64,000 bases of DNA, from NCBI RefSeq assembly GCF_004803465.1, contig NZ_SRSF01000001.1:310501-374500 (forward strand), written 5' to 3'. Position 1 is the stretch's first letter; each line of letters opens with the position of its first letter. This document shows positions 4,424 through 18,546 of this stretch, piece by piece. Made by a program: the position numbers and the translations under genes. This stretch comes from Neolewinella litorea. GTDB lineage: Bacteria > Bacteroidota > Bacteroidia > Chitinophagales > Saprospiraceae. Under the pieces are notes generated by a model. That model was not told where the DNA came from, searched no databases, and saw only the letters and a program-made list of their open reading frames with translations.

Positions 4424-5770
4424 TTGCCGAACCGCACCGATTCTCCGGCCGTCGTCCCCATGTATACCCTGGTATGGCTGCGGGTCGCGCTGGGATTGCT
4501 CGGTGCCGGCGATATCCTGGGCAACGGCATCTATTACCACTGGCTGCGCGATGCTTACTCCGGTTTCACGTTTCGCTACTTCGGTTTTGAGTGGGTACAC
4601 TCCCTGCCGGAACCCTGGATGGGTCTGTTCTTCGTCGTCGGCTTCCTTTCCGGCCTGGCGGTGGCCGCGGGCTGGCGCTTTGGGATCACGGCGCCGCTTT
4701 TCGCCCTTAGCTTCACCTATCTGTTCCTGCTGGAAAAGGCCCACTACCTCAACCACGCCTACCTGTTCGTCTGGCTGGCGTGGTTGCTGGTTTTTACCCC
4801 CGCCTGGCGCGAGTGGTCAATGGATGTCCGTCGTGACCCCACGCAGTGGTCGCCGGTTGCCCCCCGGTGGAGTGTGTACGTCTTTCCGCTACTGATGGGG
4901 CTGGTGTACTTCTTCGGCGGCATCAACAAGATCAGTTACGATTGGCTCATCGAGGCCTTGCCCCTGCACCTCTGGCTGGCGGCACGGGCCGAAATGCCCG
5001 TCCTGGGGCCCCTCTTCGCCCTGAAAGAAACCGCCTACGTGATGGCCTGGGGCGGCATGTTGCTCGACCTGCTTGCCCCCTTTATGCTGCTGCACCGCCG
5101 GCTGCGCTGGGTGGCGCTTGGGCTGCTGCTGCTGTTTCACGCCACCAACCACCTGATCTTCAATATCGGTATCTTCCCCTACCTCTCCCTGGTGTTGACG
5201 AGCCTGTTCTTCGCGCCCGACTGGCCGCTGCAGGTGGTGAACCGACTTGCCCGGCGATTTGCGATGATCGGTAAGTGGCAGCGGGACTGGCGTGCGCGAC
5301 TCACCAAGCCGGTTTCCCCGGACAAATTATGGCACCCGCGCCCCGCCGCCCTGATCCTGTTGGTGGCCGTGCATGTACTATTGCCCTTGCGCAATCACCT
5401 GTTTGGTTCGGACGTGGACTGGACCGAGGAGGGACACCGCTACAGCTGGCGCATGATGCTGCGCACGAAACAGGGCAGTGGATTCTACCGGGTAGTGAAT
5501 GGGCAAGGGGAAGTGCGGAATGTGTTTCCGTCCGACAGTCTGGACGAGCGGCAGTACAACAAGTTGGTGACGCACCCCGACATGATCCTGCAGTACGCCC
5601 ACCACTTGCGCGACATGGCGGCCGGGCCGGTAAAAGTGTACGGAGAATTCAAGGTACGGCTCAACGGGCGGCGGCGTCAGGCCTTTATCGATCCTTCCGT
5701 TGATCTGGCCCGGATCGAATGGCACTGGTTCGCCACCAAGCCGTGGGTGCTGCCGGAAGTCAGAGAGTAG
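4424..5770 (+). CDS. HTTM-domain membrane protein, vitamin K-dependent gamma-carboxylase homologue
   Basis: 448 residues, with multiple membrane segments in the N-terminal two thirds and a soluble C-terminal tail. Conserved blocks LEKAHYLNHAYLFVWL, YFFGGINKISYDWL and HATNHLIFNIGIFPYLSL line up by eye with the human carboxylase (LDKTSWNNHSYLYGL, YFIAG..K..ADW, HC.N..LF.IGMFSY). The lysine in LEKAH falls on the catalytic base K218. In animals the enzyme converts glutamate to gamma-carboxyglutamate using vitamin K hydroquinone; the bacterial role is unknown. Start is TTG at 4424, about 10 bases behind a TAAATTTT element; ATG at 4460 is the alternative. Its 3' end overlaps cysM by 11 bases, tail to tail. 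Confidence 0.85.
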   Translation: MPNRTDSPAVVPMYTLVWLRVALGLLGAGDILGNGIYYHWLRDAYSGFTFRYFGFEWVHSLPEPWMGLFFVVGFLSGLAVAAGWRFGITAPLFALSFTYLFLLEKAHYLNHAYLFVWLAWLLVFTPAWREWSMDVRRDPTQWSPVAPRWSVYVFPLLMGLVYFFGGINKISYDWLIEALPLHLWLAARAEMPVLGPLFALKETAYVMAWGGMLLDLLAPFMLLHRRLRWVALGLLLLFHATNHLIFNIGIFPYLSLVLTSLFFAPDWPLQVVNRLARRFAMIGKWQRDWRARLTKPVSPDKLWHPRPAALILLVAVHVLLPLRNHLFGSDVDWTEEGHRYSWRMMLRTKQGSGFYRVVNGQGEVRNVFPSDSLDERQYNKLVTHPDMILQYAHHLRDMAAGPVKVYGEFKVRLNGRRRQAFIDPSVDLARIEWHWFATKPWVLPEVRE

Positions 5771-8407: not shown

Positions 8408-10072
8408 ATGATCAAACGGCTGCACATCCGCAATTACGCCATCATCGAGGAGTTGACGCTGGAGTTCGCCACGGGACTCAGCATCATCACCGGCGAAACC
8501 GGGGCGGGCAAGTCCATCGTCCTGGGTGCCCTGAACCTTATCCTCGGCGGCCGTGCGGACACCAAAACGCTGTTCGATGATAGCCGCAAGTGCGTAATCG
8601 AAGGTCGTTTTGACATCGCAGCCTACGATCTGCGCCCCTTTTTCGCCGATAACGACCTGGACTACGACGCAGAACTGATCATCCGCCGGGAGATCACCCC
8701 CTCAGGTAAGAGCCGAGCTTTCGTCAACGATACGCCGGTCAATCTGAAGGTGTTGCAGGAGCTCGGAAGCACCCTTATCGACCTGCACCAGCAGTTTGAT
8801 ACCCTGTACATTAACAACAGCGACTTCCAGCTGGAATTGCTGGATGCGCTGGCCGGACAGCGGGAAGCGGTACGCGCCTACCGGCAGGAATACCAGCAGC
8901 TACAACAGGTCAAGCGCCGCCTGCACCAGTTGCGTGAAGAACAGGCCCAGGCCCGCCGCGAGCAGGAGTTTCTGGAATTCCAGGTCAATGAACTGGAAGA
9001 GGCCAATCTGCGCGAGAACGAGCAGGAGAGTCTGGAGGCGGAGCGCCACCGCCTGAGCAACGCCGATGAAATCAAGCAACTTACCTCCGGGGTATTTCAC
9101 TACCTGACGGAAGCCGACGAGTCGGTAACCGATCGCCTGTTAGCGATCTCGGTAAAACTTACCCCCCTGGCGGCGGGCGACCCACAACTGCAGTCCATCT
9201 CCGAGCGATTCGAAAGCATCCGACTGGAACTTGAGGAGGTAGCCTCGGACCTGGAAGCCTTCGGTGAGGATACCGACGTTAGTCCCGAGCGCCTGGAAGA
9301 GATTGAGGAGCGGCTGAACCTGCTCTACCGGTTACAGACCAAGCACTCCGTGAAGACGAACGGGGAATTGCTGGAAATCTTTCGCGAGCTGTCGGCCTGC
9401 CTGGACCACTTTTCCGACCTGGGCGGCAGCATCACCAAACTGGAGAAAGAACAGGAAAAGCTTCAGGCCCGGCTGGTGGAGCAGGGAAAGGCCCTGCGTA
9501 AGGAACGCCAGCGCGTGGCCCCCGATTTTGCCGGTAAGGTGCAACGCCAACTTGGCGAACTGAGCATGGCCAACGCCCGGTTGCAGGTCGACTTCACCCC
9601 CCTGGCCCAGCCCGGGGCGCAGGGGCTGGACGAGGTGCGATTCCTGTTCAGCGCCAACAAGGGCGGAAAACTGCAAGCCATCAAGGACGCGGCGTCCGGA
9701 GGCGAAATGTCGCGCCTGGCTCTGGTCACCAAAAGCCTGGTGGCTTCCGCCATGGAACTGCCAACCCTGATCTTCGACGAGATCGACGCCGGGGTGAGTG
9801 GCGACGTGGCCCAGCGCATGGGCCGTATCCTCACGGACCTGAGTCGTCACCACCAGGTGGTGGTCATCACCCACTCGCCGCAGGTGGCCAGCCGGGCGCA
9901 TCGGCACTACTTCGTTTACAAAACCGATAAATCGGACGCCGACCGTACCATCACACAGGTACGCGAACTCAACGGCGACGAACGGGTCACGGCCATCGCT
10001 ACCATGCTGAGCCAGAACCCGCCCAGCGAGTCGGCATTGAAGAACGCCCGAGAACTTATCGAGGCGGTTTAG
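8408..10072 (+). CDS. recN: DNA repair protein RecN
   Basis: 554 residues, full length for the family. An SMC-like ATPase acting early in double-strand-break repair. Visible are Walker A GETGAGKS (about residues 29-36), two coiled-coil arms rich in Q, E and L (about 155-205 and 300-370), the ABC signature SGGEMSRLAL (about 432-441) and Walker B TLIFDEIDAGVSG (about 455-467), followed by the H-loop VITHSPQVA. Starts at MIKRLHIRNYAII, the usual RecN N-terminus. It is a single-gene unit with its own promoter; the next gene is convergent. Confidence 0.98.
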   Translation: MIKRLHIRNYAIIEELTLEFATGLSIITGETGAGKSIVLGALNLILGGRADTKTLFDDSRKCVIEGRFDIAAYDLRPFFADNDLDYDAELIIRREITPSGKSRAFVNDTPVNLKVLQELGSTLIDLHQQFDTLYINNSDFQLELLDALAGQREAVRAYRQEYQQLQQVKRRLHQLREEQAQARREQEFLEFQVNELEEANLRENEQESLEAERHRLSNADEIKQLTSGVFHYLTEADESVTDRLLAISVKLTPLAAGDPQLQSISERFESIRLELEEVASDLEAFGEDTDVSPERLEEIEERLNLLYRLQTKHSVKTNGELLEIFRELSACLDHFSDLGGSITKLEKEQEKLQARLVEQGKALRKERQRVAPDFAGKVQRQLGELSMANARLQVDFTPLAQPGAQGLDEVRFLFSANKGGKLQAIKDAASGGEMSRLALVTKSLVASAMELPTLIFDEIDAGVSGDVAQRMGRILTDLSRHHQVVVITHSPQVASRAHRHYFVYKTDKSDADRTITQVRELNGDERVTAIATMLSQNPPSESALKNARELIEAV

Positions 10073-10087
10073 CGGATACCCCGAGAC

Positions 10088-10936
10088 CTATCGGCCGGCG
10101 GCCAGTACCCCGTAGCGGATGGCACCGGTGGCGAAGCCCTTGCGCATATACTTCATGGCCCAGGCTCCGCTGAGGGTGCCCTGTCCGGCGCGCAACAAAC
10201 CGGGCCAGTTGCGCGGATCCAAACCGCTGCGGATCACCGCGCCCCAGAATGGTTCCACGGCCTGCGACCAGTCGTCCATCCGTACCTGGTTCAGGCCGGC
10301 TGAGGTTGCCGCCCGTTCCAACTCGCTCAGGCTTACCAGCGGGGGGAGGTGGTACAGTTCGCAGATACGCTGCAGGGTGTACTGATCGGTGGGGGAGAGG
10401 TAGGGCGGTTCGTCGCGGTGGCACCATGTGGCCATCAGCAACCGACCGCCCGGCCGCAATAAGCTGCGAAACAGTCGAAAGAGACCCTCCTTGTCTTCCA
10501 TATGTTCGGCCGACTCCATGCTCCAGATCAGGTCGAAGCGACCGCTGGTCTCCGGGGTTAGTTCGTATACGTCCTTGGCGATGAGGTTTACCCGGCCGGA
10601 AAGCTCTTCCTGTCGGTTAAGGGCATTGCCGCGGTGGGCCTGTACGGGACTGAGGGTAACGCCGAGTCCCTGCGCGCGTGGGTACTTGCGGGCCAGGTAG
10701 CGACTGCTTCCCCCCACGCCGCAGCCGGCATCCAGGAAGCGCTCTACCTCGCGGTCGGGCGCGAGGCCCCATTCCAGCAGGGCTTCGATCATGTCGATCT
10801 GTGCCTGCTGATGAGCCACTTTGCGTTTACCGTCGGGACCGTAGTACCCATGGTGCATCTGTTCGCCCCAGGTGTCGAGCCACAAAGGCGTGGACTGGTC
10901 GTAAAAGTCGCGGATCCGTTCGTTCAGTGGGTCCAT
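10088..10936 (-). CDS. Gamma-tocopherol methyltransferase-like (VTE4-type) SAM methyltransferase
   Basis: 282 residues, class I SAM methyltransferase. The SAM site is FLDAGCGVGGSSRYLA (about 67-82). By eye it follows Arabidopsis VTE4 along its whole length: IRDFYDQSTPLWLDTWG, MHHGYYGPD, VTLSPVQAHRGN, DLIWSMESAEHMEDK, ATWCHRDE and the late WSQAVEPFWGAVIRSGL. VTE4 methylates gamma- to alpha-tocopherol; relatives also include sterol and botryococcene or squalene methyltransferases, so the exact acceptor is open. The gene follows the VTE3-like gene by 5 bases, so both probably act on the same or successive aromatic-prenyl substrates. That adjacency is the main reason to favour a prenylquinol. Confidence 0.8.
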   Translation of the reverse strand: MDPLNERIRDFYDQSTPLWLDTWGEQMHHGYYGPDGKRKVAHQQAQIDMIEALLEWGLAPDREVERFLDAGCGVGGSSRYLARKYPRAQGLGVTLSPVQAHRGNALNRQEELSGRVNLIAKDVYELTPETSGRFDLIWSMESAEHMEDKEGLFRLFRSLLRPGGRLLMATWCHRDEPPYLSPTDQYTLQRICELYHLPPLVSLSELERAATSAGLNQVRMDDWSQAVEPFWGAVIRSGLDPRNWPGLLRAGQGTLSGAWAMKYMRKGFATGAIRYGVLAAGR

Positions 10937-10941
10937 AAAGC

Positions 10942-11874
10942 TTAGCGCCGACGCAGGATGGCCCGGCCGACGAATATGGCGGCTATCACGCCGAGTCCGT
11001 ACAGTACGGCCTTTTGTTCCTTGTTCAGGGGTTGGCGCTCTCCTTCCACCCCGCGGATCGGAGCGGTGACGTGGGCGAGCAGGGCCATGGGAATGAACAG
11101 GAATCCGGCGGTGGAGCCCAGAATCAGGCGTCCGGTCAGTAGCAGGTTGCGGCCCAGCCAGCCGCCCTCCGGTTCGGCCTCCACCAGCGAGCGGGCACTG
11201 CGGCGCGGGCGGGCGTTGGGGCTGGCTCCCGGTTTGGTCTTCGTACCGACGATGGCGATGCCGTAGCGTTCGTTCTCTTGCCAGTGCGGGCGTACGTATA
11301 CCCAGTCGATGTCCGTAAAGCCGGCCTGGTGGAAGTAGAGGTGGTAGTCATTTTCCGGCGGGAACAGCATCCAGGCGTTGGCGATGAACCGACTTACCGG
11401 GTTTTTCGGTTCGATGGGACCTACCAGCAGGGCCTGACCTCCGGGTTTGATCACTCGGTAGGCTTCCTCGATGCCGCGTTTAGGATCGGGCCAGTACTCG
11501 ATGGAACCGGCCGAAACGTAGCGGTCGAAAGTATCGTCCTCGAAGGGAAGGTTTTCGGCGTCGCCGAGTCGGAAGCGGCAGTCGACCAGGGCGGGTTTGA
11601 CCATGGCGCGCTCCATTTGCTGGGGGCTCTGGTCGAGGCAGATCACATTCTTCGCCGGCACGCGACGCACAATGCCTTCCGTGGTAAAGCCGGTACCAGA
11701 CCCCACGTCCAGTACCTTCAGTGCGTCGCCCTCCGACCAGTCGACGATGGAGAGGGCTTTTTCGCGCATCGGTTCGGTCCAAAACAGGGGGTTGACCAGC
11801 TTGTCGTAGAAGTTGGACAGGTAGCGGTAGAACCAAAAGGCTTCCCGCTTGTGCTGCATTAGTCTCATGGGCAT
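10942..11874 (-). CDS. MPBQ/MSBQ methyltransferase-like (VTE3/IEP37-type) SAM methyltransferase
   Basis: 310 residues. The core closely resembles plant VTE3: HKREAFWFYRYLSNFYD, DVGSGTGFTTEGIV (SAM motif I), KNVICLDQSPQQ, RYVSAGSIEYWPDPKRGI and EAYRVIKPGG. VTE3 methylates the benzoquinol ring of tocopherol and plastoquinone precursors at the chloroplast inner envelope. As in the plant enzyme, the C-terminus is hydrophobic: two membrane segments (about 240-268 and 288-306) end in LRRR, so the enzyme is probably on the inner membrane. I choose ATG 11874 (MPMRLMQHKREAF); open frame extends to 11955 but without family similarity. It is divergent from ppk. Confidence 0.82.
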   Translation of the reverse strand: MPMRLMQHKREAFWFYRYLSNFYDKLVNPLFWTEPMREKALSIVDWSEGDALKVLDVGSGTGFTTEGIVRRVPAKNVICLDQSPQQMERAMVKPALVDCRFRLGDAENLPFEDDTFDRYVSAGSIEYWPDPKRGIEEAYRVIKPGGQALLVGPIEPKNPVSRFIANAWMLFPPENDYHLYFHQAGFTDIDWVYVRPHWQENERYGIAIVGTKTKPGASPNARPRRSARSLVEAEPEGGWLGRNLLLTGRLILGSTAGFLFIPMALLAHVTAPIRGVEGERQPLNKEQKAVLYGLGVIAAIFVGRAILRRR

Positions 11875-11975
11875 ATCAGTTGCTCGTTTAATACCTGGCG
11901 GGCCGGATTGTTCGCGAAGCCACGATACGCTGATCATACAAGGCCTACCTTGCACCTGCGTACCCGCCCCTGTTA

Positions 11976-17310: not shown

Positions 17311-17340
17311 CCCGGTACCGGGTTGAACACCCGTACCGGG
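17311..17340 (+). repeat. Strong bulged hairpin before the geranylgeranyl reductase gene
   Basis: CCCGGTAC pairs with GTACCGGG. After a one-base bulge, GGGT pairs with ACCC around a 5-base loop, giving 12 base pairs in 30 bases. It begins 9 bases after the previous stop and ends just before an ATG at 17341. Without a T run it is not a standard terminator; attenuation or mRNA stabilisation is possible. Confidence 0.5.
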
Positions 17341-17370
17341 ATGGGGTTTGGCAGTAGACAAATGCGCTCT

Positions 17371-18546
17371 ATGCCCCCAACAGATTACGACGTAGTCATC
17401 ATCGGTGCCGGACCGGCCGGTTCCACGACCGCCCGATTTGCCGCCGCTTCCGGGCTGCGGGTATTATTGGTAGACAAACGACAAGAGCTTGGCGCGCCCA
17501 TTCAATGTTCAGGGGCCATCAGCCGGCATGCGCTCGAGCAGGTAGGCATCGCTCCGGAAGCGGAATTCATTCACGAAGCGATCTATGGCTTCGCTATTTA
17601 CGACCAGCACGGCGACCGCGAGGTACACGATTACCGCCGCCTCAAGCCCGACGAATACGGGTCGGAACCCGGCAAAAAGCCCCTGGGTTACGTCGTCGAC
17701 CGCCGTCGCTTCGATCGCTACCTCATGACGCAGGCCGAGCGGGCGGGAGCGGAAGTCTGGTTGAAAACGGAGGGACTGGGATATCGCCCCGAGGCAGACG
17801 GATACTGTACGGTGTCCCTGCGCAGGTATAATCAAGCTATAGATATTCGCACCCGCATCCTGGTGGGTGCCGACGGACTACAATCGCAGGTAGGTCGGTG
17901 GGCCGGCCTGCAGACCCACATCAAGATCACGGAGTTAGCCGGCTGCCTGCAGTTTATCGTCGACCGGGTCGAAACCGAAGGCCTGTTGGAGATCGTCACC
18001 GGTCATGAGTGGGCGCCCGGAGGGTATGCCTGGGTATTTCCGAAGGGGCACGGCTACGCGGAGATTGGTCTTGGCGTCATTGCTACCATGACCGACCGGC
18101 CAGCCCGGTGGCATCTGGACAAGTTTATCACCCAAAGCTTTTTCCGGGAGCGGTTTGCCGACTGCCGGATTCTCGAAGTACAGGGTGGGGGAGTGCCGTT
18201 GGCCGCCCCGCTACGCACGCAGTACGCCGACAACCTCATCCTGGTCGGTGATGCCGCACGCCACGTTAATCCGATTACTGGGGGAGGACTGCACACCGCC
18301 GTGGCCGGAGGAAAGATTGCGGCCGACTACATAATTGGTCACCTTGCGGACGGGCTGCCCCTCCAGGATGGTGCGCTGGAAGGATACCAGCGCCTTTGGC
18401 TGGAGGAACTGGGTGACAAGATGTGGAAACTGTACGGCATCAAGACCGATATCTTCCACAATATGAATATCCCCGAACGCGACCGGCAGCTGTACGCGAC
18501 GATGGCCGACTATTTCAGCCCAACTTCAGAATTCAAGAAAATATGA
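17371..18546 (+). CDS. Geranylgeranyl reductase-family FAD oxidoreductase (archaeal type)
   Basis: 391 residues. The FAD-binding motif YDVVIIGAGPAGSTTA is at the N-terminus (about 5-20), PIQCSGAIS (about 48-56) resembles the conserved cysteine motif of archaeal digeranylgeranyl-glycerophospholipid reductases, and LVGDAARHVNPITGGGLHTA (about 291-310) is the second FAD motif. The family saturates double bonds of polyprenyl chains on lipids, quinones or chlorophyll. The next gene, a two-cluster ferredoxin, overlaps by ATGA, matching archaeal reductases that take electrons from ferredoxin. I place the start at 17371 (MPPTDYDVV); ATGs at 17362 and 17341 are alternatives. Substrate could be menaquinone, a tocopherol-like quinol or a lipid. 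Confidence 0.88.
   Translation: MPPTDYDVVIIGAGPAGSTTARFAAASGLRVLLVDKRQELGAPIQCSGAISRHALEQVGIAPEAEFIHEAIYGFAIYDQHGDREVHDYRRLKPDEYGSEPGKKPLGYVVDRRRFDRYLMTQAERAGAEVWLKTEGLGYRPEADGYCTVSLRRYNQAIDIRTRILVGADGLQSQVGRWAGLQTHIKITELAGCLQFIVDRVETEGLLEIVTGHEWAPGGYAWVFPKGHGYAEIGLGVIATMTDRPARWHLDKFITQSFFRERFADCRILEVQGGGVPLAAPLRTQYADNLILVGDAARHVNPITGGGLHTAVAGGKIAADYIIGHLADGLPLQDGALEGYQRLWLEELGDKMWKLYGIKTDIFHNMNIPERDRQLYATMADYFSPTSEFKKI

Follow-up and report, generated by a model that had tools for sequence, protein, structure and literature searches.

The stretch of DNA analysed here (the window) comprises 64,000 nucleotides of a Neolewinella litorea contig and carries two adjacent, co-directional methyltransferase genes (Table 1), which the original prediction likened to the two distinct methyltransferases of plant tocopherol synthesis, VTE3 and VTE4. 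Both are in the list of open reading frames at the positions and on the strand given for them. As claimed, five bases separate them, the stop codon of the VTE3-type gene ending at 10942 and the ATG of the VTE4-type gene starting at 10936, and all the motifs on which the likeness was based (HKREAFWFYR, SAGSIEYWPDPKRGI, MHHGYYGPD, VTLSPVQA, WSMESAEHM and VEPFWGAVIR) are found in the two translations. The hydrophobic C-terminus of the VTE3-type protein is also borne out, as two 19-residue stretches, at residues 251 and 289, with Kyte-Doolittle values of 1.8 and 2.13, respectively.

Table 1. Genes of the window discussed in the text, with position, strand and basis of the assignment
VTE3-type (MPBQ/MSBQ-like) C-methyltransferase, first gene of the pair	10942..11874	-	310 aa open reading frame, plant match, tree, hydropathy
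VTE4-type (tocopherol O-methyltransferase-like) methyltransferase, second gene of the pair	10088..10936	-	282 aa open reading frame, cyanobacterial relatives
Geranylgeranyl reductase (GGR) family protein, probable side-chain reductase	17323..18546	+	TIGR02032, 219.1 bits (cut-off 158.8)

The pair is flanked by a convergent recN-like gene ending at 10072 and a divergent polyphosphate kinase-like open reading frame starting at 11908 (both recognised by eye), and is thus an isolated two-gene unit in the window. A promoter scan found 1 site (0.4 expected) and a terminator scan 3 (1.5 expected), counts that are not informative. The description as a two-gene unit holds for this clade but not for other Saprospiria, in which the unit is VTE3-VTE4-HPT (HPT being homogentisate phytyltransferase, or VTE2), often with GGR in front. 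The nearest relative, Neolewinella marina (locus L075), is 90% identical at both genes with a like arrangement and is also nearest in the VTE3 tree (91% over the kept columns); for both proteins, many of the relatives with a named source belong to Lewinella or Neolewinella. Of 42 Bacteroidota loci, 41 have VTE4 after VTE3 and on the same strand; the exception (L051) ends 71 bases past VTE3. Given this conserved order and the 90% identical pair in N. marina, the pairing is not due to chance. Contamination was rejected as well, the contig being 1.37 Mb long and the same pair turning up in records that bear the names of Neolewinella and Lewinella strains. Lewinella-group bacteria, the host included, are not known to be phototrophic, and none of the six UbiA-family matches of the N. 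litorea genome passes the cut-off for chlorophyll synthase (L006 fits no family).

Some other features were seen in passing. The window encodes, at 4424-5770 (+), a 448-residue protein that combines an HTTM domain with the lumenal domain of vitamin K-dependent gamma-carboxylase; relatives of this protein lie at the far end of the same block in seven Neolewinella-type loci (L044, L063, L067, L068, L070, L075 and L078). In one of these, from a Saprospiraceae MAG, the VTE4-type gene matches as two overlapping pieces (L044:6927-7770, also L121), perhaps through a broken frame or a sequencing error. Elsewhere in the N. litorea genome, L005 (G000:C1:1020896-1021501) is an EboC equivalog (346.6 bits, cut-off 250) adjoining TatD-like and sugar-isomerase-like genes (by eye), which suggests an ebo cluster.

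The plant likeness of the VTE3-type protein goes beyond motifs. It scores 378 bits (48% identity over 83% of the query) with a Rhododendron MPBQ/MSBQ-family protein (P0079), the one plant-named match among those listed (the best 120 of 2110), against 48.9 bits with the best solved structure. It passes no curated NCBIfam cut-off: the best NCBIfam score, 59.5 bits with the UbiE/MenG model TIGR01934, is below the cut-off of 158.35, and the methyl-plastoquinone model MpqE (NF052510) gives 31.4 bits against a cut-off of 335, so that both identities were rejected. In their source records, several relatives are named MPBQ/MSBQ methyltransferase and one 2-methoxy-6-polyprenyl-1,4-benzoquinol methylase, names that are annotations only. 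Archaeoglobi relatives, of 203-210 residues, are without the hydrophobic C-terminal part. VTE3 is on record from a red alga too, at 62.8% identity to the Arabidopsis protein (PMC12649381). The window protein is probably of the plant VTE3 type, with methylation of MPBQ/MSBQ as its predicted activity.

The VTE4-type protein is 43-45% identical over residues 4-279 to one gene each in two cyanobacterial genomes (G001 and G026); each of these has that single match at E<=1e-25 and a PF14249 protein scoring above 530 bits. At the same threshold, 6 of 18 named genomes searched have a single match, two from each of Bacteroidota, Calditrichota and cyanobacteria; the 10 Actinomycetota genomes of this set, its Heimdall genome and its Troglogloeales genome have none. 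The MHHGYYG, TLS and PFW blocks are conserved throughout an alignment of eight sequences, and some close relatives are named tocopherol O-methyltransferase in their source records (one, 2-methyl-6-phytyl-1,4-hydroquinone methyltransferase). The protein passes no NCBIfam cut-off, and Pfam finds generic methyltransferase domains in both members of the pair. Judged against the cyanobacterial copies, it appears to be tocopherol O-methyltransferase-like.

The original prediction of a prenylated, methylated aromatic quinol called for a search of the genome for 4-hydroxyphenylpyruvate dioxygenase (HPPD), a homogentisate prenyltransferase and a tocopherol cyclase. All three were found in the N. litorea genome, which is 98.78% complete: HPPD (TIGR01263, 435.8 bits, cut-off 277), HPT (NCBIfam equivalog NF009525, 314 bits, cut-off 226), which shares the contig of the pair at a distance of about 304 kb, and a 327-residue PF14249 cyclase (63.8 bits, cut-off 26.6) on another contig. 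GGR lies in the window itself, about 5.4 kb from the pair on the opposite strand, and misses the equivalog cut-offs for ChlP (TIGR02028, 56.6 of 505.3 bits) and for the archaeal DGGGPL reductase. The pathway genes are spread over five places. Among 14 control genomes, one has a PF14249 match, below the cut-off, and none matches the phytyltransferase model. HPPD also acts in tyrosine breakdown. Together with the closeness of the VTE3-type protein to a plant MPBQ/MSBQ-family protein, the presence of HPPD, HPT, cyclase and GGR lends support to the quinol idea.

To examine the neighbourhoods of related genes, we scanned a genome collection with the peptides SAGSIEYW and K[RK]EA[YF]WFY, keeping the best 80 of 111 encoding stretches; VTE3 forms without these peptides go unseen by such a scan. 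A VTE3-type gene in a bacterium had been held to be notable; it proved not to be rare, as the 111 stretches come from Bacteroidota, Actinomycetota, Calditrichota, archaea and others. Partner genes were counted by tblastn of seven proteins on the 80 loci, and these are undercounts since some loci are short; many records are metagenome bins, and odd labels (L039, L012) may reflect misbinning. The orders seen include GGR-VTE3-VTE4-HPT in Saprospiria, cyclase-VTE3-VTE4-HPT in Calditrichota and cyclase-VTE3-HPT in Solirubrobacterales. The 42 Bacteroidota loci include VTE4 in 41, HPT in 29, GGR in 21 and cyclase in none; some of the 13 loci with no HPT are short, and the N. litorea HPT is located elsewhere. 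In 16 Bacteroidota loci GGR immediately precedes VTE3 on the same strand; in 5 others it lies on the opposite strand at a distance of 5.35-5.43 kb, and a piece of it, below the count threshold, reaches the edge of 3 further loci. VTE4, HPT and a cyclase (upstream, same strand) are each found at three of the four Calditrichota loci and GGR at two; L019 and L024 have cyclase, VTE3, VTE4 and HPT all together, in L024 in the order cyclase-VTE3-VTE4-HPT-GGR. HPT is present at 13 of 15 Actinomycetota loci (once upstream) and cyclase at 9, VTE4 and GGR at none. These nine cyclases are weak matches (41.6-76.6 bits), all upstream on the same strand, five within 0.7 kb and four at about 3.3 kb, and eight of the nine loci also have HPT. 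The absence of VTE4 there would fit a gamma-type product. HPPD, VTE4 and HPT accompany VTE3 at L039, labelled Anaerolineae, and VTE4 and HPT at L031, from an unplaced bacterium. No partner genes were found at the 12 Archaeoglobi, 2 cyanobacterial, 1 Heimdall, 1 other archaeal and 1 Troglogloeales loci. All five HPTs scanned (N. litorea, L013, L024, L028 and L042) pass the phytyltransferase cut-off, with 304.9-392.8 bits against 226. As a separate observation, a Heimdallarchaeota MAG (L038:5998-7949) has a UbiA-family prenyltransferase gene after its VTE3-type gene, with scores below every curated cut-off.

HPT and VTE3 also keep company across genomes. Within the family, 150 genomes include 18 with HPT, 17 with VTE3 and 16 with both (HPT alone in G399 and G439, VTE3 alone in G414), an association with a Fisher p of 2e-18; in a sample of 247 Bacteroidota the same two genomes have both, and the cyclase occurs in ten, those two included. 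The cyclase is more widespread in the family, being present in 67 of the 150 genomes (65 over the cut-off): 16 of the 18 with HPT (absent from G431 and G439) and 51 of the 132 without it (49 over the cut-off; p 6e-5). Both p-values are too small, as relatedness was ignored. Of 50 named VTE3 genomes from the set of 80, 43 have the cyclase, including all 24 Bacteroidota among them; those without are 3 Archaeoglobi, 2 other archaea, Troglogloeales and 1 Solirubrobacterales MAG.

The cyclase is the weakest step of the proposed pathway, being divergent and also present in HPT-less genomes. The N. litorea protein is 22-26% identical (56-58 bits) to two cyanobacterial cyclases, which score 533-541 bits with PF14249 against its 63.8, and the search of solved structures returned nothing for it. 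Its motif is YTEKDWG, with D for N, whereas the two cyanobacterial copies and nine from Actinomycetota read YxEKNWG; a passage of PMC4963081 gives YxEKNWG as the motif of cyclases from photosynthetic organisms. We built a tree from 20 stretches of genomes without HPT or VTE3 matches (18 from the family, 2 from the phylum) and the cyclases of 24 VTE3-bearing genomes. The label "HPTplus" in this tree means VTE3-bearing: HPT was verified in 18 of the 24, the others being L032, where the contig stops just past VTE3, and L111, L115, L116, L117 and L119, where the VTE3 locus contains no HPT. The labels mix, with 8-9 changes against 1 or 2 for a clean split and about 15 with shuffled labels, and the 18 family cyclases from HPT-less genomes interleave with those of VTE3-bearing genomes. 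Neolewinella-type cyclases, that of N. litorea included, form their own clade of ten, which sits on a long branch and whose members all come from VTE3-bearing genomes. The conserved neighbours of the cyclase are mainly genes common to the HPT-bearing and HPT-less groups, one of them exbD-like by eye. The cyclase is therefore old in the family and exists, or once existed, independently of HPT, which lowers ring closure by this protein from shown to likely. As it is not confined to genomes with a homogentisate prenyltransferase, we class the PF14249 protein as cyclase-like rather than as a proven VTE1. The HPT-less family genomes L129-L146 keep a PF14249 cyclase 40-50% identical to that of N. 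litorea.

From the genes, family matches, clustering and co-occurrence observed, a route can be proposed in which all substrates, the step order, chain saturation, ring closure, the product and its antioxidant role are predictions. HPPD would supply homogentisate, and HPT would couple this to a C20 prenyl diphosphate. The VTE3-type enzyme, probably tethered at the membrane through its C-terminus, would add the second ring methyl, the PF14249 cyclase would close the chromanol ring and the VTE4-type enzyme would add the last methyl, giving an alpha-type tocochromanol. GGR would saturate the chain, before or after, making the product a tocopherol rather than a tocotrienol, with a likely role as a membrane lipid antioxidant. 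We are fairly confident that the pair carries out both ring methylations in a pathway of the tocochromanol type along this route; going by the genes, the heterotroph would make a methylated prenyl hydroquinone that is probably a tocopherol. Counting against this reading are the divergent cyclase, its presence in HPT-less genomes and its absence from the 42 Bacteroidota loci, the additional use of HPPD in tyrosine breakdown, the 13 Bacteroidota loci with no HPT and the scatter of the N. litorea genes.

The pathway could instead halt before ring closure, with HPT, VTE3 and VTE4 yielding a trimethylated prenyl-benzoquinone that serves as electron carrier or antioxidant, the PF14249 protein having another job. 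The frequency of the cyclase in HPT-less family genomes and its mixing in the tree speak for this, as do the methyl-plastoquinones described from non-phototrophic Nitrospira in PMC12324825 and the additional role of plant VTE3 in plastoquinone synthesis mentioned in PMC5745509. We nevertheless consider it unlikely, though a plausible second choice, since the cyclase sits within the cluster in Calditrichota and Actinomycetota and is enriched in HPT-positive family genomes (with the caveat on relatedness given above), the prenyltransferase fits the phytyltransferase equivalog, and the VTE3-type protein is far below the MpqE cut-off. Quite unlikely, too, is a product that differs from the proposed one in its chain alone, that is, a tocotrienol-like chromanol with GGR serving other lipids. 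The distance and opposite strand of GGR in the window and its absence from all 15 Actinomycetota loci would fit such a product, but 16 of 42 Bacteroidota loci have GGR immediately before VTE3, and two of the four Calditrichota loci also contain it.

A more radical view is that the pair encodes general small-molecule or sterol methyltransferases functionally unrelated to tocopherol, the other genes being coincidental, as might be read from the generic Pfam domains and the failure of either protein to exceed a curated NCBIfam cut-off. The original prediction was to be given up if both proteins grouped with such enzymes and the genome had no prenyl-aromatic precursor pathway; the VTE3-type protein is instead far nearer to a plant protein than to solved methyltransferases, and the precursor genes are in the genome. 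We rejected this view, which we regard as very improbable, on similarity (a plant MPBQ/MSBQ-family protein matching the VTE3-type protein over most of its length at 48% identity), on clustering (conserved adjacency to a curated phytyltransferase in several phyla) and on co-occurrence (three exceptions to the HPT-VTE3 association in 150 genomes).

The pair had also been expected to bear on where plants obtained VTE3. In a midpoint-rooted tree of 46 rows, the single plant sequence, on a long branch, groups with Actinomycetota, two cyanobacteria and Heimdall (support 94/92), while Bacteroidota group with Calditrichota and L039 (98/93), Archaeoglobi falling outside. Archaeal relatives of VTE3 were reportedly noted by Cheng and others in 2003. 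Holding the plant sequence with Bacteroidota gives a p-AU of 0.027, and with Bacteroidota, Calditrichota and L039 one of 0.043; placements with cyanobacteria (0.28), Actinomycetota (0.246) or Heimdall (0.176) are unrejected. We reject Bacteroidota as direct donors of plant VTE3, weakly, as the test involves one plant sequence and groups named after inspection of the tree. Divergent enzymes for the VTE3 step are attributed to Cheng and others (2003) in a passage of PMC5745509. The statement that cyanobacteria use an unrelated enzyme stands for nearly all of them, the exceptions being 2 of 292 cyanobacterial genomes with a plant-type VTE3, both already in the peptide scan and one with a TAA within its match. 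These two (L012:776-1591 and L056:5992-6813) have only one VTE4-family gene each at E<=1e-25, and it looks as if VTE3 had taken the place of the usual cyanobacterial enzyme.

Relatives of all five steps of the plant and algal tocopherol pathway (HPPD, VTE2, VTE3, VTE1 and VTE4) are thus found in the N. litorea genome, where the second-methyl enzyme is of the VTE3 type and not of the cyanobacterial type. The system differs from the plant one in its Bacteroidota host, in the clustering of the genes in the host's relatives, in the divergent cyclase and in a GGR far below the plant ChlP cut-off. With the cyanobacterial pathway it shares an HPT that fits the homogentisate phytyltransferase model and a VTE4-type protein resembling the cyanobacterial copies; the rarity of VTE3 in cyanobacteria and their much higher-scoring cyclases set the two apart. 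Nitrospira would offer a parallel in that methylated plastoquinone-type lipids occur in a non-phototroph (PMC12324825), the N. litorea lipid being a predicted one, but the window VTE3 scores far below the MpqE cut-off and N. litorea has HPT and a cyclase-like gene. Tocopherol cyclase-like proteins of non-photosynthetic bacteria, with function recorded as unknown, are mentioned in PMC4963081, and N. litorea has a similar protein and motif; the passages concerned name no further pathway gene, whereas here the cyclase occurs with HPT and VTE3 in three phyla, and in one cluster in two of them. Among the matches listed from the open-licence literature of PubMed Central, we recognised, by titles and the starts of abstracts, no description of tocopherol synthesis in Bacteroidota, Solirubrobacter or Calditrichota.

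Vitamin E-like lipid synthesis may therefore not be confined to photosynthetic life. That several non-photosynthetic lineages make true vitamin E from a dedicated cluster (alpha-tocopherol here, a gamma-type in Solirubrobacterales, where none of 10 genomes has VTE4) is, in our estimate, an evenly balanced proposition. If it is true, finding the clustered, conserved set among heterotrophs of Bacteroidota, Calditrichota and Actinomycetota would overturn the rule, as worded in a passage of a review (PMC5745509), that tocochromanols are made solely by photosynthetic organisms, and the gene set gives a context for the heterotroph cyclase-like proteins mentioned in PMC4963081. There would be sources of vitamin E outside phototrophs and a membrane antioxidant role unrelated to photosynthesis. 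Plant VTE3 would be part of a wider prokaryotic tocochromanol system, its origin would become testable, and eukaryotes, instead of having invented it, may have received it from a prokaryote on the actinobacterial, cyanobacterial or Asgard side.
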